DNA from: Stigmatella ashevillena
GTDB lineage: Bacteria; Myxococcota; Myxococcia; Myxococcales; Myxococcaceae
DNA: 64,000 bases
NCBI RefSeq assembly: GCF_028368975.1
Contig: NZ_JAQNDM010000002.1
Coordinates: 9,418,425 to 9,482,424 of the forward strand
Direction of reading: 5' to 3'
Shown: one piece after another, positions 19,207 to 56,968 of the stretch
Numbering within the stretch: the first letter of the stretch is position 1
How the letters are laid out: each line of letters begins with the position of its first letter
The notes under the pieces: model-generated
What the model saw: only the letters and a program-made list of their open reading frames with translations
Database searches by the model: none
Told to the model about the DNA's origin: nothing
Translations under genes and position numbers: made by a program

Positions 19207-19218
19207 AAAGAGCGGCCG

Positions 19219-24816: not shown

Positions 24817-26517
24817 GAGCTTGTCGAGGAACGAGCTGACACGAGGACAGCGCGTAGGAAGTCCCCCCATGAAGCCAATGGAGGGAACTTTCCGGAGAGC
24901 AAAGTCTTCTCGCCTGGCGAGGCTGTACCCCGCAAGGGTGAGCCCCCTACGAGGCGAGAGCCGCCCGGGAGGGTAGCTCCCAGGTCTGCTTCCACAGTTT
25001 CTTCAGGTTGTGCACTGCACACGCCAGGCTGAATTCCCCGCGCACCTTCCTCAGCCCCCGGAGCGAGAAGCCCTTGAGCACGGTGTTCTTCACCTGGCCA
25101 ATGACAGGCTCAGCTGTCACCTTTCGCCGCGCGTACGCCCGCCTGCCTCGCTTCGTCTGCAGCTTCCGGCCCATACGCTCCTTGAAGCTCAGTGCCTTGG
25201 GCGGCCTTCCTCGTGGGGCTGGCACTGGCTCCTGGCCATGCTTGGAGCGCCCCGGCGCTACAAAGGGCTCCACGCCTCGCTGCTGCACCTGCTCAATGTC
25301 CTCACGGCAGAAGTACCCCGAGTCGGCGCTCAGCTCTTTGGGCAACAACCCCGTGTTGGCCTCTACCTGCGCCACCATTGGCTCCAACTGCCTCGCATCG
25401 CTCGGACTCTGCCCCACTTCTTGCGCCACAATCAGTTGCGTCTCCGCGTCCACCGCCACCTGCGCGTTGTAGGACTGCTGGAAGCTCCCGTCCCTCTTCA
25501 TGATACGTGAGTCCGGGTCGGTGAAGTTGCGCTGCGCCTTCGACTCCGGCTTGGCTTCCTCTGGCTTTTGGCCCTTCTGCTCAGCCTTGTGTCTCGCCTC
25601 CTGCTCCAAGTCCTGCTGGGCTCGGCGAATTTTCTTCACCCGCTTCTTCTTCTCGGCTGCCAGCGCCCTCTTCTTATCGGCCTCCAGTCGCCTCTTGGCC
25701 TCTTTGAGCCTCTCGGCTCGGGTGGCTGGGTCCTTCATCTCCTCGGGCAGCTCATCCCCTCTTCTTCCTTTGCCGTAGCGCTCGTCTTCCTGGGCGTCGA
25801 GTGCAGCCGCCTCTTCCAACAACTTCTTCACCTGCTCTTCCAGCTTCCTCGTCGCCTCCTCCATCCTCCCGTAGCTCATCGCCTTGTGCTTGCTGGCATT
25901 CGCCTTCACCTTCGTCCCATCCACTGCAAGGTGTCCCAGCTTTTTCATCCCGGCTTCGCTCGCCACCCTCAGCGTGTCCACGAACAGCTCCCCGAAGGCT
26001 TCCAGGTGCCTCACTCGAAAGTGACACAGCGTGTCGTGGTCCGGCCTCTCTCCTCCGGCAAGGTAGCGGAAGCCCAGGTCTATCTCGCACCGCCTCTCTA
26101 TCTCCCGGCTGCTATTGACACCCCTCGCATACGCGTACATCAACAACAGCGTCATCATCACGGGGTGGTAGGGCGGCTGTCCGCACTCCTTCGTGTACCC
26201 CTTCAGCACGGGGCTGAAGTCCAGCACCCCCGCCAAATCCGCGAAGAAGCACGCCAGGTTTCCCTCTCCCAGCGCCTCTCTCGTGTACTGCGGTAGCAAC
26301 TGCCCCTGCTCTGGCTGCCACGGCCGGAATGGCCTGGGAGACACGAACCGGCCCTTCGCCTCCTTCGACTGCTCTGGCCTCTCCGGCTTCGCGCTGGCTC
26401 CCACTTCCAGCAGCTCGTTCTGCTCGGGCGTCCTCGTTGGGCCTTGGCTCATTCCCTCCTTCAACCACACTACGTCCTACGCCGGAAGCACTACCCCATG
26501 GGTTCTCCGACAAGCTC
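24817..26517 (-). mobile_element. Complete IS1182-type insertion sequence
   Basis: The ends are near-perfect inverted repeats: GAGCTTGTCGAGGAAC at 24817-24832 and GTTCTCCGACAAGCTC at 26502-26517 (14 of 16 pairs). Both are flanked by CTAG (24813-24816 and 26518-26521), consistent with a 4-bp palindromic target duplication. Length is 1701 bp with one transposase gene on the minus strand. The element appears intact and may be mobile. Confidence 0.85.
24947..26452 (-). CDS. IS1182 family transposase
   Basis: About 501 residues. The N-terminal DUF772-type domain (GQPPYHPVMMTLLLMYAYAR, SREIERRCEIDLGFRYLAGG, PDHDTLCHFRVRHLEAF) is followed by the DDE core: HLAVDGTKVKANASKHKAMS, a long lysine-rich coiled region, DSRIMKRDGSFQQSYNAQVA and ADSGYFCREDIE, with the final Glu region YARRKVTAEPVIGQVKNTVL. 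I place the start at the ATG at 26452 next to AAGGAGG; a GTG at 26470 is an alternative. The gene has no frameshift or stop. Confidence 0.93.
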   Translation of the reverse strand: MSQGPTRTPEQNELLEVGASAKPERPEQSKEAKGRFVSPRPFRPWQPEQGQLLPQYTREALGEGNLACFFADLAGVLDFSPVLKGYTKECGQPPYHPVMMTLLLMYAYARGVNSSREIERRCEIDLGFRYLAGGERPDHDTLCHFRVRHLEAFGELFVDTLRVASEAGMKKLGHLAVDGTKVKANASKHKAMSYGRMEEATRKLEEQVKKLLEEAAALDAQEDERYGKGRRGDELPEEMKDPATRAERLKEAKRRLEADKKRALAAEKKKRVKKIRRAQQDLEQEARHKAEQKGQKPEEAKPESKAQRNFTDPDSRIMKRDGSFQQSYNAQVAVDAETQLIVAQEVGQSPSDARQLEPMVAQVEANTGLLPKELSADSGYFCREDIEQVQQRGVEPFVAPGRSKHGQEPVPAPRGRPPKALSFKERMGRKLQTKRGRRAYARRKVTAEPVIGQVKNTVLKGFSLRGLRKVRGEFSLACAVHNLKKLWKQTWELPSRAALAS

Positions 26518-42911: not shown

Positions 42912-43964
42912 TCAAAACGGGGGCTCGTGTTTCACGGGCTTTCTTCTGGAAGCCTCGGTATGGCTGGGATGAATGGCCTCGCGGACATCGAGTTCGAGGG
43001 CCAGGGGCACCTTCGCCAGCCGGTGGGGCTCTTGCGCGAGCCGGCTGGCCAGGCGGGCCACCGTGTCCAGCGGATCCACGGGCAGCTCCGTCCATTGCCA
43101 TCCCATCAGGGAGAGAATGGCCATCAGCTCGCGGCGCAGCAGTCCCTCCCGGGCCAGGAGCAGCGAGCCTCCCAACCCCACGTGGACGGGTCCGGTCAGG
43201 TGGCACCGGGAGGCCACGGCGGTGATGCCGGCCGCCAGCTCCCGGGCGGCCTCGGCCAGGAGGGTCTTGGCCACGGTGTCCCCTCGCGCCGCCTCGGCGA
43301 GCACCGCGGGGGCAAAGCTGGCCGCCGTGAGCTTTGGAGCCCCCGTGGCATGGACCCGTGTGCACAGGGCCTCGGCGCTGTTGTCCCCGCCTGTGTCCTC
43401 GCCCGCCCAGGCTTCGGCCGCTTCGGCCAGGCTCGTGACGGGCCCCCGGCCATCCCTCATCCGCACCACGGCGGCGAGCCCCCGCCGTCCCAGGTCGAAG
43501 CCTCCGCCTTCATCGCTGAGCAGGTACTCCATGCCAGAGGCCCGGGCCCAGCGCCCATCGGTCGTCATGGCGGCGTAGCCCGTTCCCGTGCCGCAGATCG
43601 CGACCACATCACACGCCCCGGCCGCGACCGGGGGGACGATGTCGTTCATCAACCACAGCCGCTCGGCTCGGAGGGGCATCAGCCCGCGCTCCGCCAGCGC
43701 CCGCAGGGTGGCCCCCGTCGCTTGGAGGGCTTTGCGTGTTCCGGCATTCGACAGGGCCAGACATGCGGTGCCAATCCGCTGAAGCTCCGGAGGCCGGTTT
43801 CGCCACAGCTGCTCGAGGAGCCCCGCCAGGACGTCCATGCCCCGGCCCCCCGTGGTCTGCTCGTTGCAACTCGGTCCTTCGAGCCGGGCGAGGAGGCGGC
43901 CCTCGATGGCGAGGCCCAGGCGGGTGGAGGAGCCTCCTCCGTCGACGACGAGATCGCACTTCAT
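42912..43964 (-). CDS. BadF/NAGK-type sugar or cyclitol kinase (cluster gene 8)
   Basis: 350 residues of the ASKHA kinase fold: phosphate-1 motif VDGGGSSTRLGLAIEG, phosphate-2 motif VVAICGTGTGYAAM and the family signature LLSDEGGGFDLGRRGLAAVV. The family includes N-acetylglucosamine kinases. In the validamycin pathway a kinase (ValC) phosphorylates the cyclitol before nucleotide activation; position in this operon suggests a similar job here, though the family differs. The ATG overlaps the MFS stop by 4 bases (ATGA). It is the last gene of the operon. Confidence 0.87.
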   Translation of the reverse strand: MKCDLVVDGGGSSTRLGLAIEGRLLARLEGPSCNEQTTGGRGMDVLAGLLEQLWRNRPPELQRIGTACLALSNAGTRKALQATGATLRALAERGLMPLRAERLWLMNDIVPPVAAGACDVVAICGTGTGYAAMTTDGRWARASGMEYLLSDEGGGFDLGRRGLAAVVRMRDGRGPVTSLAEAAEAWAGEDTGGDNSAEALCTRVHATGAPKLTAASFAPAVLAEAARGDTVAKTLLAEAARELAAGITAVASRCHLTGPVHVGLGGSLLLAREGLLRRELMAILSLMGWQWTELPVDPLDTVARLASRLAQEPHRLAKVPLALELDVREAIHPSHTEASRRKPVKHEPPF

Positions 43965-45154
43965 GAGGCCATCGCTCGGGGCTGAAGCCGGGGCAAGGCG
44001 AAAGCTGCCAGCGCCAGCACCCCGCCGGCCGCCGCGAGCATGCCCCAGGTGGCCCTCAGCCCCCACGCCTGGGCGATGGCGCCGCACAAGGGAGGACTGG
44101 CCAGATAGCCGAAGTAGGCCAGCAGGGTGACCCGCGCGATGGCGGCGCCCCGGGCCGAAGGTTCCGTGGCTTCGGTGGTCATGCTGAACACCGTGGGGAT
44201 TCCGCCCGCCATGCCGAGGCCCGCCACCGCGAATCCAGCCAGGGCGACGAGGGGATGGGTCGCCGAGAGCACCACCACCAGTCCGGCCGTGGCACTGGCG
44301 CCGGCCAGGGCCAGCTGGGTCCTTCCATCGATCCGTGTGGCCAGCCGCTGGGCCACGAGTCGGCCGAGAAACAGGCTCCCCATGTAGACCGCAGGGCCCG
44401 TGCCCCCGAGTACGGGCGGCGCGCCGAGCACCGTCTCCAGGTACAGCGCGGACCACTGCTCGACCGCGTTCTCCACCAAGTGGACCGCTGCCCCCAACAA
44501 GCCCAGGGTCAGCAGGAGCGGAACACCCCGCGGGCCGCCTCTTGAGGTGGCTTCTTCGCCGCTCGGAAGGGGCAGCTTTCCCAGGTTGGCGGGCACGGCA
44601 AGAAACACCGAGAGCGCCAGCACGGAGATGAGCAGCGGCAGTGGCAACTCGAGCTGACGGCCCAGCCCCGCGCCGGTGCTGGCGAGGACCACGGCGAGCG
44701 GAAAGGCCGCATGGGCCATGTTGAACAGCTTGCGTCCCATCGCCGCCTCCAAGGCCGCGACGCGCGCATTGAGCGCGATGTCGAGCGCTCCCGAGGTGGC
44801 ACCCACGAAGATGAGCGCGATTCCCAAAGCCCAGGGCGAGGTGACGAGTCCCAAGGGCACCACGGACACGGCGAAGGCCGCCAGGGTCAACGGCAGCGCC
44901 CGGTTGCGCAGCCGGTCGACCCATGGGCCAAACAGAAGCATTGCGGGCAGGGCCCCCGTGGCCACGCCCAGCAGGGACAGCCCCAACTCCCGCTCACTGG
45001 CGCCCGTTGCCCCCTTCACGGCGGGCAGCAGCGCTCCCCAGGCCCCCCAGAAGATTCCCCAGGCCCCGTAGGCCAGCAAGACACCGGCAATGGCCCCCCG
45101 CGGGTTGCTCAGCTTCGTGGTCACCCCGTCCTCCTTGCGTGCCCGCTCCTTCAT
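43961..45154 (-). CDS. MFS transporter, drug-efflux type (cluster gene 7)
   Basis: 397 residues with about 12 hydrophobic segments, for example GAIAGVLLAYGAWGIFWGAW and LVVVLSATHPLVALAGFAVA, and the loop FGPWVDRLRNRAL of the major facilitator superfamily. It lies within the cyclitol operon between the dehydrogenase and kinase, overlapping both by 4 bases. I infer export of the cluster product or import of a precursor; the direction cannot be told. Confidence 0.9.
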   Translation of the reverse strand: MKERARKEDGVTTKLSNPRGAIAGVLLAYGAWGIFWGAWGALLPAVKGATGASERELGLSLLGVATGALPAMLLFGPWVDRLRNRALPLTLAAFAVSVVPLGLVTSPWALGIALIFVGATSGALDIALNARVAALEAAMGRKLFNMAHAAFPLAVVLASTGAGLGRQLELPLPLLISVLALSVFLAVPANLGKLPLPSGEEATSRGGPRGVPLLLTLGLLGAAVHLVENAVEQWSALYLETVLGAPPVLGGTGPAVYMGSLFLGRLVAQRLATRIDGRTQLALAGASATAGLVVVLSATHPLVALAGFAVAGLGMAGGIPTVFSMTTEATEPSARGAAIARVTLLAYFGYLASPPLCGAIAQAWGLRATWGMLAAAGGVLALAAFALPRLQPRAMAS

Positions 45155-46212
45155 GGCACGACCAAAACCTTACCGGGCCGTGGTTTCGGCCCTCCAGCGC
45201 TCAGTTCAACAGGCAGTTCTGTCAGGCCAATGCGCCGCAACACCAGCCGCTCCAGTGCCCAACTGGCATCCGGGGCCGAAAGCCATCGCAAGCCTCGTGC
45301 AAAACAGGACGGTTCGGTGCCATAGCTCCCCGCTACCGTCAGAGGTTTCCGTCCCCAGCGCACGGAGGCAGAGCCCTCCTGACGGCGGAGGGGATCCAAC
45401 GCCAGCTCGACGCCCGCCTCGGCGAAGCGGTCCTCCTGCTGCGTTCCTCCATATAAGAGGATGGCGCCGTCTGGCGTCACCGTGTCCAGGGCCCAGCGCA
45501 GCCAGCGCGCCTCGATGAACGCGGTGGCCAGCACGATGGCCTCCGGGGGTGTCCGGGGAGGCTCGTCCCGGCCGAGGGCCTCGGCGGCGAGCAGGCCGGT
45601 CTCGCGCAGGAACTCCAGCTTGTCCGGGCTCGCGTTGCGCAGGCTTACCGTGGCGCCCGCGGCCCGGGCCGACAGGGCAATGAGCGTCCCGGCGATGCCC
45701 GCTCCCACCACGAGCACGTGGCGTCCGGAGATCTGCCCGCCCAGCGCTTGAGTCACCCGGTCGAGACAGTGCACGGCACACGCGAGCGGCTCCGCGAACA
45801 CCGCTCGCTCCAGGGAGACGGTCCGGGGAACCCAGTGCAGGGCCTCGGCCAGCTCCTTCTCGGTGCCATCGGCCGGCATGAGATCGGCGAAAGCTGTTCC
45901 CCGGTTCAGCGGGCGATTGGGATCCAGGCACACCCGGTCTCCCACCTCGAAAGGGGCTTTTCCCCAGTGCGCGATGACCTCTCCCACGACTTCATGGCCG
46001 AACTGGCTCGCCCCCTGGCGCTGCCGCGCGGCCTCTTTGTAGTCAGAGCGGCAGATGCCCAGCATCAGGGGGCGCACCATCACCCCCGCACGGTGGCGCG
46101 GAGACCAGTCCAGGCCCGGGCGGAGCTGGGGACCCTCGGGTGTCAGGGCCACGTGCCGCAACTCCGGGCGTGCGTCGCCCGTGCTCCGTGCCTCGCCGTC
46201 AAGCCAGGGCAT
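45151..46212 (-). CDS. MDR-family dehydrogenase without a structural-zinc lobe (cluster gene 6)
   Basis: 353 residues, start at MPWLDGEARSTG. Catalytic-zinc residues are likely kept (LGICRSDYKEA and FGHEVVGEVI) and the Rossmann motif is VLVVGAGIAGTLIALSARAA. After DRVCLDPNRP the four-Cys structural zinc lobe of alcohol dehydrogenases is absent. Similar enzymes (such as AcbL and ValN in cyclitol pathways) oxidise or reduce cyclitols. The 5' end overlaps the aminotransferase stop by 14 bases. Confidence 0.85.
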   Translation of the reverse strand: MPWLDGEARSTGDARPELRHVALTPEGPQLRPGLDWSPRHRAGVMVRPLMLGICRSDYKEAARQRQGASQFGHEVVGEVIAHWGKAPFEVGDRVCLDPNRPLNRGTAFADLMPADGTEKELAEALHWVPRTVSLERAVFAEPLACAVHCLDRVTQALGGQISGRHVLVVGAGIAGTLIALSARAAGATVSLRNASPDKLEFLRETGLLAAEALGRDEPPRTPPEAIVLATAFIEARWLRWALDTVTPDGAILLYGGTQQEDRFAEAGVELALDPLRRQEGSASVRWGRKPLTVAGSYGTEPSCFARGLRWLSAPDASWALERLVLRRIGLTELPVELSAGGPKPRPGKVLVVP

Positions 46213-47452
46213 GGCACGCCTCTCCGAAGCGGGCGAGCAGCTCATCCACCTCTTTTTCGGTGATGACGAGCGCCGGGCGGATCTCGATGACGTGGCCACG
46301 TCCATGTTCTGAGACCCGGGTCATCAGTCCCTGGCGCAGCAGGGCCGCCTGCAATCCCAGCGCTTGGGCAGGAGCGGGTGCTCCCTGTGGCCCCACCACC
46401 TCCAGCCCCAGCATCAGCCCGACCCCCCGGACCTCGCCGATGAAGGGATGGTTCGGGGCGAGCCGGGCCAGCCCCTCGCGCAGGCGATTTCCCACCTGCC
46501 GGACATGGGGGAGGAAGCCTGGGCGAGAGACAATCTCCACCGTCTTCAGGGCCGCCGCCGCCGCCACCGCGTTGCCCCCTCCGGTGAAGCCGTGGTGGAT
46601 GCGCGGCAGCCCCATCAGACGCTCCTCGGTGAGGATGGCCCCCATGGGAAACCCGCTCCCCGTCAGGCCCTTGGACAGGGTCATCATGTGCGGGGAGACG
46701 CCGAAGTAATTCGCGGCGAACATCTCGCCGGTGCGGCCAAAGCCGGTCTGGATCTCATCGAAGATGAGGACGATGCCCCGCTCCTCGCAGAACCGCTTGA
46801 GCTCGGGAAAGTAGCGCGGCGGGGGGACGATGTTCCCTCCCACCCCGAAGATCGGTTCGATCAGCACGCACGCCACGCTGCCCGAGCTGGCATAGCGGAT
46901 GAAGTCGTCGATCCGCGACACGCAGGGCAGTTCGCAGTGGTCCGCCTGCTGGCCGTAGAAGCAGCGCGAGCAGGAGGGCTCCGGGACATGCAGGGCCCCC
47001 GGCATGACGTAGGGGAAAGGGCCCCGGTGGAACGCGAAGCCCGAGTACCCGATGGTGGCCATGGTCTGGCCGAGGTGGCTCCGGAACATCGTGATGACAT
47101 CCCGCTTGCCCGTGACGTGCTGGGCGATGCGGATGGCGCCCTCGTTCGCGGTGGACCCGCCCGAGCTGCGCAGGTGCACGCGGGACAGGTTCGAGGGGGC
47201 CAGGCCCACCAGCGCCGCGGCGAGCTGCTCGACCGGCTCCGACAGATAGGAGGAGCCCGTGTGCACCAGCCGGTCCATCTGGGCCTTCGCGGCGGCCATG
47301 ACCTCGGGGTGGTTGTGGCCCAGCAGGAGGTTGAAGGTGCCAGAGATGCAGTCGAGGAACTCCCGGCCGTCCCGGGTGCGCACCCGGACCCCCGCGCCCT
47401 CGGTCAGGACGATGTCGCCCGTCTCATAATAGAAGGGGGGCGGCACGGTCAT
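46199..47452 (-). CDS. Class III PLP aminotransferase (cluster gene 5)
   Basis: 417 residues of the acetylornithine/GABA aminotransferase class. Motifs include LLLGHNHPEVMAAAKAQMD, FRSHLGQTMATIGYSGF, IVLIFDEIQTGFGRTGEMF and the PLP lysine in MTLSKGLTGSGFPMGAI. A Cys-rich insert PSCSRCFYGQQADHCELPC is present. In the cluster it probably converts a keto-cyclitol to the aminocyclitol that the pseudoglycosyltransferase uses as acceptor. It overlaps the upstream transferase gene by 4 bases. Confidence 0.92.
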   Translation of the reverse strand: MTVPPPFYYETGDIVLTEGAGVRVRTRDGREFLDCISGTFNLLLGHNHPEVMAAAKAQMDRLVHTGSSYLSEPVEQLAAALVGLAPSNLSRVHLRSSGGSTANEGAIRIAQHVTGKRDVITMFRSHLGQTMATIGYSGFAFHRGPFPYVMPGALHVPEPSCSRCFYGQQADHCELPCVSRIDDFIRYASSGSVACVLIEPIFGVGGNIVPPPRYFPELKRFCEERGIVLIFDEIQTGFGRTGEMFAANYFGVSPHMMTLSKGLTGSGFPMGAILTEERLMGLPRIHHGFTGGGNAVAAAAALKTVEIVSRPGFLPHVRQVGNRLREGLARLAPNHPFIGEVRGVGLMLGLEVVGPQGAPAPAQALGLQAALLRQGLMTRVSEHGRGHVIEIRPALVITEKEVDELLARFGEACHALA

Positions 47453-48894
47453 CGGCGTTCCCCAGGGGCTGTGCCGAGTCCCAGGCTGGAGAGCTGTTGC
47501 CGCACCCAGGTGGGCAGGTCGTACTTGAGGACGACCTCCCGGCGCCGCCGCGCGGCCTCGGCCCGCTCGGCGGGGGTGGCATGCAGGGCCTCTCGCAGGG
47601 CCTGGGCCTGCTCGACGATGTCGAAGGGGTTGACGAGCCGGGAGACGCTGGCGAGGGCCTCGGCCGCGCCGCAGCGCTCCGAGAGGATGAGCACCGCGTC
47701 ACGCTGGTTGAACAGGGTCCCCTCGAAGGCCGTGAGGTTCTGCCCATCGACGGTGGAGTTGAGCAGCAGTACGTCCGCCCGGCGCAGGGCCGCGAAGGTG
47801 CCGTTGACGCTGTTGGTGCAGACGAGCCGGACGGTGTCGCTCCCCAGGTCTTGGTTGGCCGCCTCGACGGCCCGGCCCACCCGGTCCCGGTATTGCTGGT
47901 TGGCCTCCACCGAGAGCCGGTTGGGATTCATCTTCACGAGCAGCCGGGCGCGCCGCAGTCCGGGGTCCTCTTGCAACGCCGCCGTGAAGGCGAGGACGGC
48001 CCGCTCGGCGTTCTTGATGGGGTCGGTGCGGCCCGAGTGGACGACGAGGGGATGATCGCCGATCCACGAGGCCAGCTCGGGGGAGACCTCCCCCTCGCGG
48101 ATGTCCAGGGCCGAGGGGCTGTACCCGAGCGCCATCGCCTCCACCCGCACCGTGCGGCCTTCCCAGCGGAGGGTGGCGGACGAGAAGTCCACGCGTGCCT
48201 CTGGCAGCAGGTCCTCCACACAGGCCAGGAAGTTCCTCACCCAGCGGGTGGCGAAGAAGGCGATGACGTCGGCCCCCAGCATGCCCCGTAGCAGGCCCTC
48301 CCGCATGGGGCGGGGCAACATCCGCCAGTAGTCCGCCGAGGGCCAGGGGATGTGGACGAAGAGCAACTGCGGCGCTTCGGGACGCTGGGCCCGGAGGTGC
48401 TGGGGAACGCCGCACATCTGGTAGTCGTGCAGCAGGTAGACGGGATTGGGGCAGGACTTCGAGCGCTCGAGCAGCGTGGTGGCGAAGGTCGCCGTGAAGG
48501 TCTCGAAGTTCTTCCAGGCCCGGTGGCTGCGCGCGTCGAAGGTGGGCTTCGTCCAGCCATCCCAGAGGTAGTTGTTGCTGGCCCAGAGCAGGTCGGCGGT
48601 GATGATCTCCTGCATGTCCTCGAAGACGGCCGGCTCATGCTGGAGCAGGTGGAGGTGGACGGGGGCAGCCGCGCTCACTTTCACCTCCATTCCCCGGGGA
48701 TGCTGGGACGCCACGTGGCGGTCCTCGTCCGTCATGGCGCAGGCAATCCAGGACACGCCCAGTTGGCTGGCCAGATCGGCCACGACGTTGGCGGTTCCTC
48801 CTGGGGCGAGCTCGGCGGTGAGCGTCCCGGAGACATCGCGGTGGTACGTCACGGGGGCGCGCTTGCTGGCGAGGAAGATGCGTTCTCGGCTCAT
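47449..48894 (-). CDS. GT20-family pseudoglycosyltransferase, VldE/ValL-like (cluster gene 4)
   Basis: 481 residues. It is related to trehalose-6-phosphate synthase but matches VldE/ValL much better: IFLASKRAPVTYHRD, LAPGGTANVVADLASQLGVS, the acidic/His stretch LLFVHIPWPSADYWRMLP, VVHSGRTDPIKNAERAVLAF and NSTVDGQNLTAFEG. VldE joins GDP-valienol to validamine 7-phosphate through an N-linkage with retention, without a classical sugar donor. The Arg/Lys of SGRTDPIKN and the nucleotide-sugar region are kept. This gene marks the cluster as making a C-N linked pseudo-disaccharide. It overlaps the aminotransferase gene by 4 bases. Confidence 0.9.
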   Translation of the reverse strand: MSRERIFLASKRAPVTYHRDVSGTLTAELAPGGTANVVADLASQLGVSWIACAMTDEDRHVASQHPRGMEVKVSAAAPVHLHLLQHEPAVFEDMQEIITADLLWASNNYLWDGWTKPTFDARSHRAWKNFETFTATFATTLLERSKSCPNPVYLLHDYQMCGVPQHLRAQRPEAPQLLFVHIPWPSADYWRMLPRPMREGLLRGMLGADVIAFFATRWVRNFLACVEDLLPEARVDFSSATLRWEGRTVRVEAMALGYSPSALDIREGEVSPELASWIGDHPLVVHSGRTDPIKNAERAVLAFTAALQEDPGLRRARLLVKMNPNRLSVEANQQYRDRVGRAVEAANQDLGSDTVRLVCTNSVNGTFAALRRADVLLLNSTVDGQNLTAFEGTLFNQRDAVLILSERCGAAEALASVSRLVNPFDIVEQAQALREALHATPAERAEAARRRREVVLKYDLPTWVRQQLSSLGLGTAPGERR

Positions 48895-48911
48895 GGGGAC
48901 AAGTCTCCTGA

Positions 48912-49820
48912 TCAACGTGGGGGGACATCGAGCAAGGGGCCGAGGCGCGCGGCACCCGCGGCGAGGCCCGAGATGCTCAGCCCGGAGAGTTCCGGGAGGT
49001 GGTGCAGCCGCAGACTGCGCAGGCAGGCATTGGCGGGGCGGCAGGAGTAGCGTCCGGCGGCGCGCTCCACGGGCCGAACGAGGTTGGGATCCTGCCCGAG
49101 GCTTTCGGCGATGAGCCGACCCCACTCGAAGCGGGACACCCGGTCGGGGCCGGCCAGGTGGAGCACTCCGGAGGGGCCTCCTGGAATCAGGCGCGTGAGG
49201 ACCGCTGCGGCATCGTCGACGAGAATGGGGGTGTTCCAGTGGTCGACGGGCGCCTGCACGGTCTGGCCGGAGCTCACGGTGTCCGCCACCACCATGAAGA
49301 AGTTGCGCCAGCCGCGCCCCGGGCCACGGGGTTCGTATCCATAGACGAGGCTGGTGCGGACAATGAGAGCGCTGGGGTCCGCCGCGAGCAGCACGCGCTC
49401 GGCGGCCAGCTTGGCCCGGCCATAGGCGTTGGCGGGGGAGGGGACCCGGGATTCGTCGTAGCAGGTGTCCTGGCCGTCGAAGACGTTGTCCGTCGAGATC
49501 AGCACCTTGCGGACCGTGGGCGCCTCCTGGCACAGGCGGGTCGCGATGCCCGCATGGGTGGCCATCGCCGTCTCGGGCGCGTTCTCACAGCCGGTGATGT
49601 CGGAAGGGCCATGCACGAGCACCACGGCATGCGCCCCGGTGGTGCCCACCGCCTCCGCGATGGCGCCGGGCCGCGAGGCATCCAGGCCCAGCCAGTCTCC
49701 CGCCCATCGGCCCTTGGGCCGGTGACGTGAGGACAGCGCCACCGAAAACCCTTCTTCCCGCAGGGCCTGGCCGAGCCGCTGGCCAATGAAGCCGCTGCCG
49801 ATGATGAGCACCTGCCTCAT
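48912..49820 (-). CDS. RmlD-like SDR reductase/epimerase (cluster gene 3)
   Basis: 302 residues, start at MRQVLIIGSGFIGQRL (extended SDR Rossmann, GxGxxGxR). It has VRKVLISTDNVFDGQDTCYD and NAYGRAKLAAERVLLA with the YxxxK catalytic pair, as in dTDP-4-dehydrorhamnose reductases. In a cyclitol operon it may reduce a keto intermediate, comparable in position to AcbN. The C-terminal substrate region is not diagnostic. It lies 7 bases after the TIM-barrel gene and 17 before the transferase. Confidence 0.87.
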   Translation of the reverse strand: MRQVLIIGSGFIGQRLGQALREEGFSVALSSRHRPKGRWAGDWLGLDASRPGAIAEAVGTTGAHAVVLVHGPSDITGCENAPETAMATHAGIATRLCQEAPTVRKVLISTDNVFDGQDTCYDESRVPSPANAYGRAKLAAERVLLAADPSALIVRTSLVYGYEPRGPGRGWRNFFMVVADTVSSGQTVQAPVDHWNTPILVDDAAAVLTRLIPGGPSGVLHLAGPDRVSRFEWGRLIAESLGQDPNLVRPVERAAGRYSCRPANACLRSLRLHHLPELSGLSISGLAAGAARLGPLLDVPPR

Positions 49821-49827
49821 GAGGGCC

Positions 49828-50790
49828 TCACCACCAGCGCGCCTGCCGCGGGCTGTGCAGCAGCAGGGGCCGGATGAAGTCGAGGGCGAGGCGGCTGCCT
49901 TCCCATCGGCCGAGGGTGCTGTCCTCGTTCTCCACGGCGACATCGCCGGTGTAGCCCGCCAGGTGGAGCTCGGTCAGGATGCGGCGCCAGTCGAGCTGGC
50001 CCCACCCCGGAATCCGGAAGCGGAAGTTGCGCTCGGCCTCCGAGTAATACCGGTTGTGCGCCAGGAAGTGCCGCCGGGTGACCGGACGGAGCACCTCCGC
50101 ATCCTTGGCGTGGACGTGCCAGATGCGGCTGCCGAACAGGCGGATGAAGTCGACGGCGTCCACGCCGGCCAGGGCCAGGTTGCCGGTATCGACGTTGAAG
50201 CCCCACTCCGCGAATTCACCCAGCACCTCCAGGCTCCGGGCGGCGCTCTCCGTCTCGTAGACGAGCTGCTTCGGGTGCAGCTCGTGGGCAAAGCGCACCC
50301 CGTACTCGCGGTACACGGGCAGCACGGCCCCCATCACTTCGGCGCACTGGGCGAACTGCGAGGCCCACCCGTCCTCCTGCCCAGGCCAGCGGAACCATCT
50401 CGCGTAGTCCGGGCACCCGATGAAGCCCGCGACCAGTCTCACCCCCATCGCGTCAGCCGCGCGGGCGCAGTCCTGCATGCGGCGGATGGCGTAGGCCCGC
50501 TTCTCCGCCGAGGAGCCCTTGAAGATGCCATCCGTCACCTCATGGAGGGGCCCCAGCAGAAGCTGCCCATCCGCGTGGTTGCTGATCGCCGAGATGGCGA
50601 GCCCCGCCTCCGTCAGTTGCCGCTGCACCGTGCCGCGCCGGGAGGGATCCAGCAGGTCCTCCAGTTGGAGCATGCGGGAGGAGGTGTCGACCGCGAGATC
50701 GATGCACTCCAGGCCGAGCCCCTTCACCCGGGTGATGGCCTCTGCGAGCGGCAGGTCCATGTAGGCCGTGGATGCCAGGCTCAGCCGCAT
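49828..50790 (-). CDS. TIM-barrel sugar isomerase/epimerase (AP-endonuclease-2 fold; cluster gene 2)
   Basis: 320 residues, start at MRLSLASTAYMDLPLAEAI. Xylose-isomerase-like TIM barrel with metal-ligand regions VRFAHELHPKQLV, WGFNVDTGNLALAG, RIWHVHAKDAEVL and GDVAVENEDSTLGR. It could isomerise a heptulose phosphate or epimerise a cyclitol ketone; validamycin clusters use a VOC-type epimerase for that step, and none is present here. The start overlaps the cyclase stop by 10 bases. Confidence 0.87.
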   Translation of the reverse strand: MRLSLASTAYMDLPLAEAITRVKGLGLECIDLAVDTSSRMLQLEDLLDPSRRGTVQRQLTEAGLAISAISNHADGQLLLGPLHEVTDGIFKGSSAEKRAYAIRRMQDCARAADAMGVRLVAGFIGCPDYARWFRWPGQEDGWASQFAQCAEVMGAVLPVYREYGVRFAHELHPKQLVYETESAARSLEVLGEFAEWGFNVDTGNLALAGVDAVDFIRLFGSRIWHVHAKDAEVLRPVTRRHFLAHNRYYSEAERNFRFRIPGWGQLDWRRILTELHLAGYTGDVAVENEDSTLGRWEGSRLALDFIRPLLLHSPRQARWW

Positions 50791-52001
50791 GCCTGGGCCT
50801 CCTGCGCGACGAGCTGGCATGCGGCGTCGTACTGGCTCCGGCTGATGTCATCGATGATGGTGCTGCGGTCGATCGCCGTCGGCATGACCAACAGGAGTCG
50901 GCCGTTGCGCACCAGCCGGGCGGTCTCCAGGTGCTGCCACACCTCCTCGCGCAGCCCGTCTGGAACGGTGACGGGCAGCCGCAGCTTCTGGAGCAGGCGG
51001 AGGATCCGGCGCAGGGTGTCCCCGGACGCGAGCCCCAGCCCCACGGAGACCGCCGCGACCGTGGCGGTCCCGATGGCCACCGCCTCGCCGTGTCGGTAGC
51101 GCACGAAGTGCGTCGCGGCCTCCAGGCCATGGCCCACGCTGTGTCCGAGGTTGAGCAGCCGGCGCAGATCCTGTTCGAACGGGTCGGGCGCGAGCAGCTC
51201 GAGCTTCTTGCCGATGGCCGCCGGGATGAGGGGGCCCAGGCCTTCGATCAAGAGGTCCGGCGCGGGCTGGTCCAGGGGCAAAGAGGGGGACAGCGGGAGC
51301 TGCTCGAGCTGCTCGAAGAGGCCGGGCGTTCCAATGAGGGCCACCTTCACCACCTCGGCCAGTCCGTTGATGACCTCCGCGAGGGGAAGGGTGGCGAGAC
51401 ACGACGGATCAATGACCACCAGATCAGGGTGGTAGAAGCCTCCAATGAGGTTCTTGCCCGTGCTGTGGTCGACGCCGACCTTGCCCCCAATGGCCCCATC
51501 CACCTGTCCCATCAAGGACGTGGCGACGTTGACGTAGGGAATGCCCCGTAGGTAGGTCGTCGCGACGAAGCCCACCAGATCGCAGAGCACGCCTCCCCCC
51601 AGGGCCACGAGGAAGGAGCGGCGGCGCACGCTCCGCGAGCGCAGCTCGTCCCAGAGCCTGTGCGCCTGTGCGATGGATTTCGAGGGCTCGCCGGCAGGAA
51701 TGACAATGCACTGCACGGGAGCGCCCGTGGCCGAGATCCGCTTCGTGACGAGTTCCGCGTACAGCGGGCCGACGTGCTGGTCGGTGATGACCACCGCGGA
51801 GTCCGCCGCGTTGGCCTCCATCACCGGGCGCAGCAGATCTCCGAGCCGGGACAGGGTGCCCCGGCCCACGATGATCTCGTAGTGGTCCTCCCGGTGAACC
51901 GTGACGCGATAGCCCGCTTTGCCTGCGTCGATGAGGAGTGAGCCGCGATGAGGAGACTTCACGTCATGGGTCGAGGTGGCTGTGGATCCAGTGGAAGGCA
52001 T
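50781..52001 (-). CDS. Sugar phosphate cyclase of the DHQ-synthase superfamily (cluster gene 1)
   Basis: About 406 residues. NAD and metal motifs are clear: VALGGGVLCDLVGFVATTYL, SLMGQVDGAIGGKVGVDHST, LAEVVKVALIG and RRLLNLGHSVGHGLEA with HGEAVAIG later. The superfamily contains DHQS, EEVS, DOIS and others. Here Arg, Asn and both His of RLLNLGHSVGH and the GGK/GKN lysines resemble DHQS, whereas EEVS normally shows Asp and Pro/Ser there. The C-terminal DKK motif of DHQS reads ARL. Product identity is therefore open. GGGAG 8 bases before the ATG at 52001 supports the start; the frame runs on to 52145. First gene of the operon. Confidence 0.88.
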   Translation of the reverse strand: MPSTGSTATSTHDVKSPHRGSLLIDAGKAGYRVTVHREDHYEIIVGRGTLSRLGDLLRPVMEANAADSAVVITDQHVGPLYAELVTKRISATGAPVQCIVIPAGEPSKSIAQAHRLWDELRSRSVRRRSFLVALGGGVLCDLVGFVATTYLRGIPYVNVATSLMGQVDGAIGGKVGVDHSTGKNLIGGFYHPDLVVIDPSCLATLPLAEVINGLAEVVKVALIGTPGLFEQLEQLPLSPSLPLDQPAPDLLIEGLGPLIPAAIGKKLELLAPDPFEQDLRRLLNLGHSVGHGLEAATHFVRYRHGEAVAIGTATVAAVSVGLGLASGDTLRRILRLLQKLRLPVTVPDGLREEVWQHLETARLVRNGRLLLVMPTAIDRSTIIDDISRSQYDAACQLVAQEAQACG

Positions 52002-52186
52002 TGGGTCGGCTCCCGGGCAACGCGAGGTGTCTGCCGCAAGCGAACAGGTAGTGGGAGCGGACGCGGCCAGGGAGTGGGAAACGGGCGGTGCGGCGTTTTT
52101 CCACTCTCCTCGGGTGCGGGGCTGCTGCTTACTTCCATGCAACACGGGGCCGCGGGGCCGCGCGCAGCGGGAGAGGAGCGTCGTCC

Positions 52187-53278
52187 ATGGAGCACGTGCG
52201 AGCGGTGTTACTGGCGGGCGGGCGCGGCCTTCGCATGGGCCGCCTCGGGCAGGGGCGGCTCAAGCCCCTGGTTCCGTTTGGCGGCCAGTGCCACCTCATC
52301 GACTTCAGCCTCTTGAATTGCCGTGCCTCGGGCGTTGATGAAGTGCTGCTGTTGTCCCAGCACCAGGAGGCGCAGCTGATTCAATACCTGCTGGCGCGCT
52401 GGCACGGCCAGGGGTTGAAGATTCACTTTGGTCCCTATCAAGGCATCACCCCGGAGACCTGTGAGCACGTGCTGGCCACGGTGCACCGGCCGACCGAGGC
52501 CGGTACGGGCGATGCCTTGCGGCTCAATGCGCCCTTCATCTTTGGACGTGGCGTGCGGGAGGTGCTCGTGCTCCATGCGGATCATGTCTACCGGTTCGAC
52601 TACCGGCCCATGTTGGCATTGCACCGCGAGCGCCGCGCGGCCCTGACCCTCGGCTACCAGCGCATCGCTCGCGAAGCCGTGTCTCTGTTTGGCATGGTGG
52701 AGCTCAGCGCCGAAGACAGGCTTCTGCGCTTCGTCGAGAAGCCGGCGCAGCCCACGGCCGACACGGTGTTCACCGCGGTGGCCATCTTCGCGGCGGAGCC
52801 CTTGCAGCGGTACCTGGAAACCCTGTCCCAGGGCCCCTGGCAGGCCGACATCAGCCGGGATGTCATTCCCGCCATGATTCAGGCTGGGGAGCGCATCTTC
52901 GGCTACCGGTTCGAGGCGTACTGGGAAGACATTGGAACCTCGGCGCGCTACCTGGAGGCCCACCGTCGGCTCGTCTCGGACCGGCCCACGCTGGGCCTCG
53001 CGCAGTTGCCGCACACCCTTCAGCCCGCGTCCGCGCGCCACTGGGTGCGCCAGGCCGGAGGGTTGAGCCACACGCTGACCGGGGACGATGTGCGGTGTGA
53101 GGGCCGGGCCGAGCGCTCGGTGTTGTTTCCCGGCGTGGTCATCGGTCCGCGGGCGGTCGTGCGGGACAGCGTCGTGTTGCCAGGGGCGCACATCCTCGGG
53201 GACAGCCGGGTCGAGGGCAGCATCGTGCTGGATGGGGAGCACCTGCACCACGCCCACCTGCGGGACAGAACGGAATGA
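52187..53278 (+). CDS. GlgC-like nucleotidyltransferase (ValB-like, divergent)
   Basis: 363 residues, start at MEHVRAVLLAGGRGLRMGRL, the pyrophosphorylase signature. KPLVPFGG, TEAGTGDALRLNAPFIF and VLVLHADHVYRFDYRPM follow; the C-terminus is a left-handed beta-helix ending RVEGSIVLDGEHLHHA. It is shorter than typical GlgC. The ValB/VldB type activates cyclitol 1-phosphates with GTP. It shares the 185-base divergent region 52002-52186 with the cyclase operon and would provide the nucleotide-activated cyclitol for the pseudoglycosyltransferase. Confidence 0.9.
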   Translation: MEHVRAVLLAGGRGLRMGRLGQGRLKPLVPFGGQCHLIDFSLLNCRASGVDEVLLLSQHQEAQLIQYLLARWHGQGLKIHFGPYQGITPETCEHVLATVHRPTEAGTGDALRLNAPFIFGRGVREVLVLHADHVYRFDYRPMLALHRERRAALTLGYQRIAREAVSLFGMVELSAEDRLLRFVEKPAQPTADTVFTAVAIFAAEPLQRYLETLSQGPWQADISRDVIPAMIQAGERIFGYRFEAYWEDIGTSARYLEAHRRLVSDRPTLGLAQLPHTLQPASARHWVRQAGGLSHTLTGDDVRCEGRAERSVLFPGVVIGPRAVVRDSVVLPGAHILGDSRVEGSIVLDGEHLHHAHLRDRTE

Positions 53279-53320: not shown

Positions 53321-54128
53321 ATGGCAAGCGATAGGGTTCATGCCACGGACGGCGGGCGGCGGGCCTCCGTGCTCTCCCGGAGCGGTTGGGCATGGGAATT
53401 CCTTCGCCGCAACCCCGCCTACCAGTCTGAGTGGAAGGCCCTGGCGGCCCAGGGCCGGCTTCCCGTGCATTTCCACGCGGGCGACCTGGAGGTGCGGCGG
53501 CTCGCCGAGCGCAACGAGGAGGTAGCCCATTGGGGACTCCTGGCGTTTCGTGGATCCATCGCTCGATGCCTGGTCAACCTCGGTCTTCTGGGCGAGCGGT
53601 GCCTTGCCTCGCCTGAATGCCCGCATCCAGACCGGCCCCGCCAGCATGCGGGGGTTCTGGCTGGATCGTCTGCAATGCCAGAAGAGTTTGTTGCTCGGCC
53701 CCGAGGGCGGAACGTTGATGTTCACGGGAAATGGGGAGACGGTCGCGCTGGAGTGCGAAGGCGAGGTGGAGGCCCTGCTCTCTCCTGGCGCGGCCTTTGT
53801 GCTTTGGGTTCCCGGGCCGCAGGATCTCGAGGGGGCCATCTCCGCGCTGGATGATTTCCGGACGCTGCTCGGGCCCGGCATGCAGGAGCCGCTGCCCCGG
53901 TCCAAGCAGCTTCAGAGCTACCTCATCGCGCTCGATGCGGAGCGGGCGGGCGCCTCGTACCGGGACATCGCCATCCTCCTGTATGGCGAGGCGGCGGCGG
54001 CGAAGCACTGGAGGGATCCCGCCCGGCACATGAAGGATGCCGTCCGTTACGCGGTCCGGCGCGGATGGGCGCTCATGGAGGGGGGCTATCGCCGGTTGCT
54101 CCTGAAGCGACTGGCGGGGCCGGCATAG
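53321..54128 (+). pseudogene. DUF6499/DUF2285-domain regulator, +1 frameshifted
   Basis: The first 76 codons from the ATG at 53321 match the DUF6499 head (SGWAWEFLRRNPAYQSEW). At WGLLAF the frame must move by one base (the extra C at 53549) to continue VDPSLDAWSTSVFWASG in frame to 54128. The C-terminus then reads GASYRDIAILLYGEAAAAKH and MKDAVRYAVRRGWALM, the DUF2285 helix-turn-helix type. Joined, the product would be about 268 residues. The family occurs mainly in integrative elements of proteobacteria. The gene is directly downstream of the GlgC-like gene. Confidence 0.7.
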
Positions 54129-55612: not shown

Positions 55613-56968
55613 ATGAAACACGCTGGATGGGGTGTCCTGGTGGGCGCTGGAGTTGTTCTGGGGGCAATGCCTGCGGGCGCCCAGACCCGTTCTCCCTGGC
55701 AGATGCACCATGGGTTGGAGGTCTCCGTGGACAACCCTCAGGGGCTGCGGCAGTTCTCGTGCGCGCCCACGCAGCACGGTGACAGCTGTGAATACGACGA
55801 GGCCACCATTCCCCCCAGCGAGGAGGCGGGGTGGGCCGCCGCGCCAAACCCAGACACGATTGGCTTCTCCATCCCCTCGCGCGTCTGTCAGGCGCCGGTG
55901 GCGTGTCTGGCGTATGGGGATTTCACCTATTTCCAGACGTTCGTGGAAGTGCCCGCGAACGTGGTGGTGACCACGTTCACCATCGCCTTCCAGGGCATGG
56001 ATGATGGCTCGCGGGTGACGCTTTTCAACTCCGCGTACCCGGATGGGCTCGTCATCCCGGGCAGCTACGTCTACCTGCACGGCTCGGGCACGGCGAACCT
56101 CGGCGCCTATGTCAAAACGGGTGAGCGCAACCGCGTGGTCATCACGCAGGTGGATGACTGCTGCACGGACAACCACCTGCAGAAGGCGGACGTGGTGCTC
56201 AACGGCGACATCCTCGAGCTGCCCGAGGGCTGCCATGGCCCCAGTGATTGCGATGACGGCAACACCTGCACCACGGATGTATGCAGGCCCGATGGGACGT
56301 GTGAGCACCCGCTCCTGGTCTGCGCTGGCGGCCAGTCCTGCGGCCAGCCTCCCGGCGAGGGGGGCGGGGGCTCGGAGGATGGAGAGAGCGGCGGAGGCGG
56401 CGAGGACGATGGCGGGGTCATCATCGGCATCCAGGCACAGAACGCCTGTCCGGAGGATGCCACGGACCTCACGATGTCGGTTCGCGGCACCCGCGACATG
56501 GTGCTGGAGTGCGGCCAGGACGCTTGGGTGGATCCCGGTGCCCAGGCGTGGGACGTGTCTTGCAATGCCCTGGAGGTGCACGCCTTCAACGTGGGCAATG
56601 ACGCGTCTGGCCCGGGCCCGAACCCCTGTGCCGAGGGGACCTATTCGGTGCAGTACGTCGCCTGGGATGCGAAGGGCCGCACGACGAGCACCGTGCGCAC
56701 GGTGAAGGTGGAGGACACCACGCCGCCCGCGTTCCGGCTCAAGGGGCCGCAGCACGTGACGCACACCTGCGGCTCTCAGTGGGTGGAGCCAGGTTGGGAG
56801 GCGATCGATGCCTGCTACGGCAACATCACCCCCGAGGTGCACTGGACGGGCTTCCCGAACGGCTGGGTCGAGGGCTCCTACACGGTGGTGTACACGCTGA
56901 CGGACAGCGGCGGGAACAAGGCCCCGACGCTGACCCGCACCGTGGATGTGGTGGACTGCCCCTGGTAA
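55613..56968 (+). CDS. Secreted protein with C-terminal Ig-like (DUF5011-type) domains
   Basis: 451 residues with a signal peptide (LVGAGVVLGAMPAGAQ). The N-terminal half is beta-rich with cysteines; a DCDDGNTCTTDVCRPDGTCE stretch is a Cys-rich module common in myxobacterial surface proteins. After a Gly/Asp/Glu-rich linker come two DUF5011/HYR-like Ig folds ending EGTYSVQYVAWDAKGRTTST and GSYTVVYTLTDSGGNKAPTL. Likely a cell-surface or matrix protein. Confidence 0.82.
   Translation: MKHAGWGVLVGAGVVLGAMPAGAQTRSPWQMHHGLEVSVDNPQGLRQFSCAPTQHGDSCEYDEATIPPSEEAGWAAAPNPDTIGFSIPSRVCQAPVACLAYGDFTYFQTFVEVPANVVVTTFTIAFQGMDDGSRVTLFNSAYPDGLVIPGSYVYLHGSGTANLGAYVKTGERNRVVITQVDDCCTDNHLQKADVVLNGDILELPEGCHGPSDCDDGNTCTTDVCRPDGTCEHPLLVCAGGQSCGQPPGEGGGGSEDGESGGGGEDDGGVIIGIQAQNACPEDATDLTMSVRGTRDMVLECGQDAWVDPGAQAWDVSCNALEVHAFNVGNDASGPGPNPCAEGTYSVQYVAWDAKGRTTSTVRTVKVEDTTPPAFRLKGPQHVTHTCGSQWVEPGWEAIDACYGNITPEVHWTGFPNGWVEGSYTVVYTLTDSGGNKAPTLTRTVDVVDCPW

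Follow-up and report, generated by a model that had tools for sequence, protein, structure and literature searches.

Can a myxobacterium make a validamycin-type sugar mimic from a starting ring that differs from that of validamycin? This question is raised by a compact gene cluster at positions 42912-53278 of a 64,000-nucleotide stretch from Stigmatella ashevillena (NZ_JAQNDM010000002.1), hereafter the window, whose numbering is used for all positions. An initial annotation had listed nine genes there and read them as an aminocyclitol pseudo-oligosaccharide cluster. Family matches, together with start codons picked from ribosome-binding sites and homologues, confirmed the nine genes, their families, their coordinates and their tight junctions (overlapping or at most 17 bases apart). 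To that list we add a tenth gene (53321-54128) and an inverted repeat (52072-52106). A sugar mimic of the validamycin type, likely a trehalase inhibitor, is very probably the product of these ten neighbouring genes, built from a starting ring unlike validamycin's. As a whole, and with a probability of roughly 0.62, we read the locus as a C7N-aminocyclitol cluster of the 2-epi-valiolone synthase (EVS) type that would produce, under FseA-type control, a pseudo-disaccharide joined by a C-N bond, with validoxylamine A or a near relative as the likeliest product.

The order of the nine genes is intact in four further genomes of the phylum (G092, G095, G096 and G097; 9/9 genes each), and the ratio of nonsynonymous to synonymous substitution rates (dN/dS) is 0.06-0.30 for all nine genes in comparisons with loci L025 and L028. 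This conservation of order, together with such ratios in every gene, makes the cluster more than a chance assembly. At five of the seven minus-strand junctions the genes overlap (by 4, 4, 14, 4 and 10 bases), and at the other two they are separated by 17 and 7 bases. The nucleotidyltransferase gene starts at 52187 on the plus strand, and 185 bp separate the two divergent operons.

The transferase belongs to the ValL/VldE family

Judged by its sequence, the GT20 pseudoglycosyltransferase (PsGT) encoded at 47449-48894 (minus strand) is a true ValL/VldE-type enzyme, with predicted C-N coupling activity. It matched VldE (PDB 3vdm) at E 2.8e-161, as against E 6.5e-50 for the best OtsA-type chain, and is 54% identical to the ValL/VldE type. 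In a tree of 32 rows, the 28 rows of the VldE clade, including the window PsGT, were split from the four OtsA-type rows with support of 100/100. Seventeen of the 19 ligand-contact positions of VldE, taken from the list in an excerpt of PMC3441724, are identical in the window PsGT, the two differences being R321K and S388T, and the acceptor-side contacts R12, D158, Y159, N325 and R326 are all retained. The OtsA-type rows deviate at the guanine contacts. Since these contacts are otherwise retained in the window PsGT, a GDP donor is suggested, as in validamycin biosynthesis. The initial annotation had named clustering with ordinary trehalose-6-phosphate synthases as the outcome that would speak against its assignment; instead, the PsGT groups with VldE apart from OtsA and keeps 17/19 contacts. 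An ordinary OtsA identity was rejected on the basis of the tree split, the residue pattern and the presence of a separate OtsA-type gene (L095) elsewhere in the same genome. The myxobacterial PsGTs form a deep sister branch to all 23 actinobacterial rows (support 95/97), and because they branch outside all of these, none of the sampled actinomycetes can have been the source of a recent transfer.

A sugar phosphate cyclase of another class than ValA

At three positions, which we take to be 268, 275 and 250 in the numbering of the Aspergillus nidulans 3-dehydroquinate synthase (DHQS), ValA carries D, P and M, whereas the sugar phosphate cyclase of the window (PF01761; 50781-52001, minus strand) carries N, H and K. 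The window cyclase falls outside the 12-row clade that holds the 2-epi-5-epi-valiolone synthases (EEVS) and DDGS (support 100/99). A ValA-type (EEVS) cyclase was rejected because of these residues and this placement. The initial annotation had spoken of the validamycin/salbostatin toolkit, a description that holds for the orthologues of ValB, ValK, ValL, ValM and ValN but not for the cyclase.

We also rejected AroB as the best reading of this gene. Its AroB score of 285.8 bits lies below the cut-off of 305, another, AroB-like cyclase gene (L003) is found elsewhere in the same genome, and in the tree the protein groups with cluster-borne cyclases, not with the AroB rows. A KK pair near the C terminus is present in all 10 rows with full DHQS residues and is RL in the window cyclase; the full pair is absent from all 21 rows of the window cyclase clade, where it reads RL in five myxobacterial rows and RQ, RE, KQ or RK in 16 actinobacterial rows (the long-branch row L094, with other residues, was excluded from this count).

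We propose that the window cyclase is an EVS. The sister clade contains a cyclase at 2.216 Mb of genome G262, which we take to be Actinosynnema mirum, with support of 90/84, which is moderate and carries a long-branch warning. Asamizu et al. (JACS, 2012) reportedly showed that 2-epi-valiolone is made by enzymes resembling DHQS from A. mirum (Amir_2000) and from Stigmatella aurantiaca DW4/3-1. Among the four cyclase genes of A. mirum (2.22, 3.87, 5.02 and 6.25 Mb), the one at 2.22 Mb is presumably nearest to the expected place of tag 2000 in a genome of 7,174 genes. Genome G096, which we take to be S. aurantiaca DW4/3-1, carries at 3.78 Mb a cyclase 90% identical to that of the window. The published enzymes are thus probably the 2.216 Mb cyclase and the G096 orthologue. 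The initial annotation had found a myxobacterial location unusual; the organism is indeed a myxobacterium, but the occurrence is less surprising because the 2012 work reportedly described a 2-epi-valiolone synthase from S. aurantiaca.

Other cyclases were noted in passing. A second C7-type cyclase in the same genome (G000:C2:7492779-7493111; L002, L075) lies inside the wider EEVS/DDGS clade and has orthologues in G095, G096 (1.69 Mb) and G097. The cyclases of L087 (G262, 3.87 Mb) and L086 (G197) have R for lysine at DHQS position 197 and form a separate pair in the tree.

Relation to validamycin and to other actinobacterial loci

A collection scan returned 16 loci, all actinobacterial, from which near relatives of the window may be omitted, and a family search centred on the L019 genome (Allokutzneria), in which the best four candidates per genome were scored, gave matches in at least 13 of 390 genomes at E 1e-100. 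Of the 19 long actinobacterial loci (19.9 kb or more), 12 carry the complete set of nine genes, six carry eight (four without the MFS gene, two without the cyclase) and the validamycin locus L020 carries six; six loci ending at a contig end contained 6-8 of the nine. Uniqueness of the gene set to the window was consequently rejected. The genes for the SDR reductase, PsGT, aminotransferase and MDR dehydrogenase follow one another in that order in 19/19 long loci. In L019 and L071, which carry eight of the nine genes, the cyclase was not found within the fetched flanks, so that the ring may be made there by a gene elsewhere.

L020 (Streptomyces hygroscopicus NBRC 13472) was recognised as the validamycin cluster by its cyclase, which matches ValA (4p53) at E 7.8e-223, and by its VOC, ROK, GT2 and MFS genes; the Val letters of its other genes are our assumption. 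Besides ValL, the window encodes a ValK orthologue (RmlD-like SDR reductase, PF04321; 48912-49820, minus strand; 46% identity to that of L020), a ValM orthologue (class III aminotransferase, PF00202; 46199-47452, minus strand; 60%), a ValN orthologue in the equivalent slot of the order (MDR dehydrogenase, PF08240; 45151-46212, minus strand; 42%) and a ValB orthologue (GlgC-like nucleotidyltransferase, PF00483; 52187-53278, plus strand; 51%). The K-L-M-N order is identical. This order and the genuine ValL/VldE-like transferase bear out, as a prediction, the aminocyclitol pseudo-oligosaccharide cluster of the initial annotation. Its further suggestion of a new product did not fare as well: the downstream enzymes are validamycin orthologues, and the best guess is validoxylamine A.

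The two clusters differ in their early enzymes. The L020 cyclase belongs to another class than that of the window, the window has a BadF kinase where validamycin has the ROK protein ValC and a TIM barrel where validamycin has the VOC protein ValD, the MFS proteins differ, the GT2 protein ValG occurs only in validamycin, and the FseA-type regulator is extra in the window. The VOC, ROK, GT2 and MFS genes that L020 also carries found no match in the other 30 records (the window and 29 loci with flanks of up to about 10 kb, some of them short and one genome represented twice), and ValC, ValD and ValG gave no tblastn match at 1e-8 in the 64-kb window. The absence of a ValD-type epimerase and a glucosyltransferase claimed in the initial annotation therefore stands, since searches of the window revealed no homologue of ValD, ValC, ValG or ValH.

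In the PsGT tree, the nearest rows to VldE and L020 are L023 and L024, followed by L016 (98/99 each). The cyclases of L023, L024 and L016 fall in the 16-row actinobacterial clade, not with ValA. Because the VldE/L020 PsGTs are nested among loci whose cyclases are not ValA-like, the validamycin cluster seems to be a derived variant that has swapped its cyclase, epimerase and kinase for others. The A. mirum locus L064 has the same nine gene families, the block of SDR, PsGT, aminotransferase and MDR genes and a cyclase in the neighbouring clade. Its arrangement differs, with mdr-at-psgt-sdr-mfs against spc-kin-tim-ntp; TetR genes lie nearby, and no FseA-type domain was found among 10 open reading frames (ORFs) scanned.

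Candidate enzymes for the epimerase and kinase steps

Since the early steps of validamycin differ just in the cyclase, the ValD epimerase and the ValC kinase, two window proteins are left for the latter two roles. The xylose-isomerase-like TIM barrel (PF01261; 49828-50790, minus strand) is probably the 2-epimerase, filling the role of the missing ValD-type enzyme. Its residues E170, D201, H227 and E287 are invariant in 12 aligned sequences and presumably correspond to the metal set of ketose 3-epimerases. A profile search matched 2zds (E 4.3e-31) and the 2-hydroxy-3-keto-glucal hydratase 8ro4 (AtHYD; E 1e-20). A predicted model of the protein (pLDDT 79.5, pTM 0.83) was superimposed on 2zds with Z 36.0 (2.5 Å over 305 residues), on 8ro4 with Z 33.4 (2.8 Å over 304) and on ketose 3-epimerases with Z of about 26. 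A dehydratase is a candidate alternative role for this protein. The MDR dehydrogenase is a further candidate for the dehydration, because AcbL carries out this reaction in the acarbose pathway according to the excerpted text of PMC7081202. By elimination, the BadF-type, GlcNAc-kinase-like protein (PF01869; 42912-43964, minus strand) is proposed to be the cyclitol 7-kinase; its best solved relatives are the MurNAc/GlcNAc kinase 8zo3 (E 1.8e-15) and a hexokinase (E 2.2e-06). The MFS transporter (PF07690; 43961-45154, minus strand) is the proposed exporter, and the MFS protein beside the validamycin genes did not match it. The Ebo operon, in which a cyclase is paired with a TIM barrel (PMC5133447), was dropped as a model since no UbiA, TatD or pyrophosphatase family occurs among the nine genes.

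A tenth gene and a conserved repeat

Downstream of the nucleotidyltransferase gene, PF20109 and PF10074 are encoded in two different frames on the plus strand. The first part (53321-53539; PF20109/DUF6499), 73 codons up to the putative frameshift site, contains the motif AWEFLRRN and ends in WGL; the second (53541-54128; PF10074, RovC_DNA-bd/DUF2285) lies in the +1 frame. Both domains were recovered on the read-through protein, a predicted fusion of 268 residues that had no NCBIfam match and whose C-terminal part had no solved-structure match at 0.01. The frames join at TGGGGACTCCTGGCGTTTCG, which is identical in 5/5 genomes. In comparisons with four other genomes, dN/dS was 0.18-0.48 in the first frame before the join and 0.10-0.17 in the +1 frame after it, as against 2.2-3.2 in the first frame after the join. 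An internal GTG start at 53550 for the second half was rejected because it is not kept in G095, which makes a frameshift the preferred reading. We propose that the tenth gene encodes an FseA-family activator made by a +1 ribosomal slip.

In each of the five cluster genomes, the regulator gene comes directly after that for the nucleotidyltransferase. PF10074 was found in 5/195 genomes of the phylum (Myxococcota), once in each and in the same five as the PsGT, when the best 8 candidates per genome were scored for the PsGT (E 1e-80) and up to 23 for PF10074 (E 0.001). The same pattern of regulator and cluster was seen when all candidates were scored in six genomes, three with and three without the cluster.

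The excerpted sections of PMC10359603 name AWEFLRRN and WGL as marks of FseA, and there about 61% of 4709 FseA homologues span the +1 frameshift site. FseA of ICEMlSymR7A, as presented in these sections, has the same DUF6499 and DUF2285 domains, the AWEFLRRN motif and a +1 frameshift at WGL. Unlike that protein, the window regulator adjoins a biosynthetic cluster, is not known in a conjugative element and belongs to none of the groups (alpha, beta and gamma) that are named for FseA there.

Between the two operons, at 52072-52106, lies a strandless 35-bp inverted repeat, GAGTGGGAAA-N15-TTTTCCACTC, which could be aligned in five genomes, occurs at one place in each and is absent from G098 and G100, two genomes of the same genus without the cluster. 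Within its longer arms is GGGAAA-N15-TTTTCC, with one mismatch. The spacing is that of the FseA box, described in the excerpt of PMC10359603 as a pair of inverted hexamers with 15 or 16 bp between them, and on this likeness we propose the repeat as an FseA-type box in the divergent promoter. Because its arms are long, conserved and found at a single place per genome, autoregulated activation of both operons via the repeat is proposed. A shuffle control gave the pattern 0 times in 100, although this control is weak because the pattern was derived from that very site. The same repeat was not found in five actinobacterial loci (plus strand), and neither a sigma-70 promoter nor a terminator was returned when the divergent region was scanned for them.

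Genomic setting

The cluster is missing from three genomes of the same genus (G098, G099 and G100). Orthologues of the genes at 11.6-17.1 kb of the window lie 6.3 kb from rho in G098 and G100, compared with 40 kb in the window, which indicates that the cluster lies in a region of variable length. This stretch (17051-56992) spans about 40 kb here, its flanking genes are 6.3 kb apart in G098/G100, and a transposase gene lies within it at 24947-26470. In G092, the cluster and rho are on different contigs. The PsGT of the window is 92% identical to those of both G092 and the same-genus G095, whereas rho is 82% identical in G092 and 90% in G095. Transfer of the cluster between genera is suggested because PsGT identity is equal in the two genomes while that of rho is lower in G092. 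Of the many ORFs between 17 and 43 kb, 12 were scanned, and none of these matched an integrase or conjugation family.

Two further features of the surroundings were recorded. At 17983-21117, a GTP cyclohydrolase II gene adjoins a creatininase-domain gene, and this pair may represent another small pathway. The Ig-like surface protein encoded at 55613-56968 had 7-14 partial matches in each of G098, G099 and G100 at 1e-30 and none in G092.

Proposed pathway and alternative explanations

In the pathway that we propose, the cyclase would convert sedoheptulose 7-phosphate to 2-epi-valiolone, a step suggested by its kinship with the A. mirum enzyme, which is probably the one reported to make this compound. 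The BadF kinase would add the 7-phosphate, and the TIM barrel would epimerise C2 via a metal-bound enediolate, like ketose 3-epimerases. Dehydration by the MDR protein or the TIM barrel would lead to valienone 7-phosphate, from which the SDR reductase, MDR dehydrogenase and aminotransferase would produce valienol 7-phosphate and validamine 7-phosphate. The GlgC-like enzyme would form GDP-valienol, and the ValL-type enzyme would couple both units with retention. A phosphatase from elsewhere in the genome would remove the 7'-phosphate, and the MFS protein would export the product. Expression would depend on the FseA-type activator, formed only upon a +1 slip at the conserved WGL site; it would bind the inverted repeat between the operons and turn both on, its own gene included. 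Acarbose biosynthesis, as far as the excerpts of PMC9200736 and PMC7081202 go, shares the chemical logic, the GDP-valienol donor and the non-glycosidic C-N coupling, and differs in that AcbS is GT5-like, not GT20, and AcbC makes 2-epi-5-epi-valiolone.

Several observations weigh against this interpretation. The window cyclase is 37% identical to the A. mirum cyclase, and the clade support is moderate with its long-branch warning, so its EVS activity could differ. The A. mirum and S. aurantiaca genes are tentatively equated with the published EVS, on the basis of position. Loss of the KK pair is partial, and as a mark it is only partly clean, because 8/16 actinobacterial rows of the clade retain the second lysine (RK). 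None of the ten genes could be recognised as encoding an enzyme for dephosphorylation or C1 phosphorylation. Pairs of hexamers spaced 15-16 bp apart with no more than one mismatch also arise by chance, one other being present in the same 342 bp; since such pairs alone are not rare, we place weight on the longer arms, their conservation and the single place per genome. Finally, the sequence does not dictate which acceptor the PsGT uses, one of the two substitutions (R321K) contacts the guanine site, and the acceptor may have changed in myxobacteria because their PsGTs branch deeply, outside the 23 actinobacterial rows.

This last point leads to the most serious rival, a pathway of the same type that makes a new compound, either with a different amine acceptor such as an amino sugar or aminohexitol, as in salbostatin with its aminohexitol-type acceptor, or with a hydroxylated (valiolamine-type) unit. 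The lack of matches to ValG, ValC, ValD and ValH in the window, the two substitutions at nucleotide contacts of the PsGT and the deep myxobacterial branch fit this alternative, and, according to an excerpt of PMC12041759, ValL also accepts valienol 7-phosphate in place of its usual acceptor in vitro. Against it, all five acceptor-side contacts of VldE are retained and the orthologues of ValM and ValN, which would make validamine, are present; we regard a different product as possible, at about one chance in four. That the cyclase is an extra DHQS and the product carboxylated or of the shikimate type could be argued from the best solved-structure match, a DHQS (3okf, E 4.3e-61, ahead of ValA at 2.7e-43), and from the DHQS-type residues retained at 250, 264, 268 and 275. 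The sub-threshold AroB score, the separate AroB-like gene, the replacement of KK by RL, the grouping with cluster-borne cyclases and the neighbouring C7N-cyclitol enzymes make this very improbable, and PMC5133447 cautions that an EVS would be mistaken for a DHQS. Still further down the scale is an operon for trehalose or glycogen metabolism built around an ordinary trehalose-6-phosphate synthase: GT20 membership and the GlgC-like neighbour would suit it, but the separate OtsA-type gene, the fully supported tree split and the residue pattern leave it next to no weight.

For the tenth gene, the alternative is a leftover of the mobile element that brought the cluster, and not a regulator. The family controls conjugative elements in the systems treated in the excerpt of PMC10359603, the cluster sits in a stretch that is much longer here than in two relatives and contains a transposase gene, and it lies on another contig than rho in G092. 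Both halves of the gene are nevertheless under purifying selection, its place after the nucleotidyltransferase gene is kept in five genomes, it was found nowhere else among the best candidates of 195 genomes, the repeat was found only between the two operons, and the 12 ORFs scanned at 17-43 kb, out of many, showed no integrase or conjugation family. We thus consider a mobile remnant unlikely and prefer an FseA-type activator of the cluster.

Implications

No myxobacterial cluster with a ValL-type enzyme was recognised in literature titles and abstracts among the matches listed, and the word aminocyclitol is absent from the excerpted text of PMC10435759. In the excerpt of PMC6616573, three myxobacterial saccharide biosynthetic gene clusters of aminoglycoside and aminocyclitol subtypes are described as lacking similarity to others, and these may include the present one. 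The product derived from 2-epi-valiolone was still called uncharacterised in 2016 (PMC5133447), and the compact gene set, kept across two phyla, could reveal what 2-epi-valiolone becomes. The comparison with L020 suggests that the pathway of an industrial antifungal is one branch of a wider family. We give about even odds to a broader proposal, in which the EVS-type nine-gene pathway, rather than the textbook validamycin route, would be the older and more general way of making pseudo-disaccharides of the GT20 type, gated in myxobacteria by a +1-slip FseA-type activator that binds a single genomic box between the two divergent operons, a conjugation switch having been turned into a cluster on-switch. 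The locus is also a candidate example of a biosynthetic cluster under the control of programmed frameshifting, and a trehalase inhibitor, as the product may be, would suit a predatory soil bacterium.

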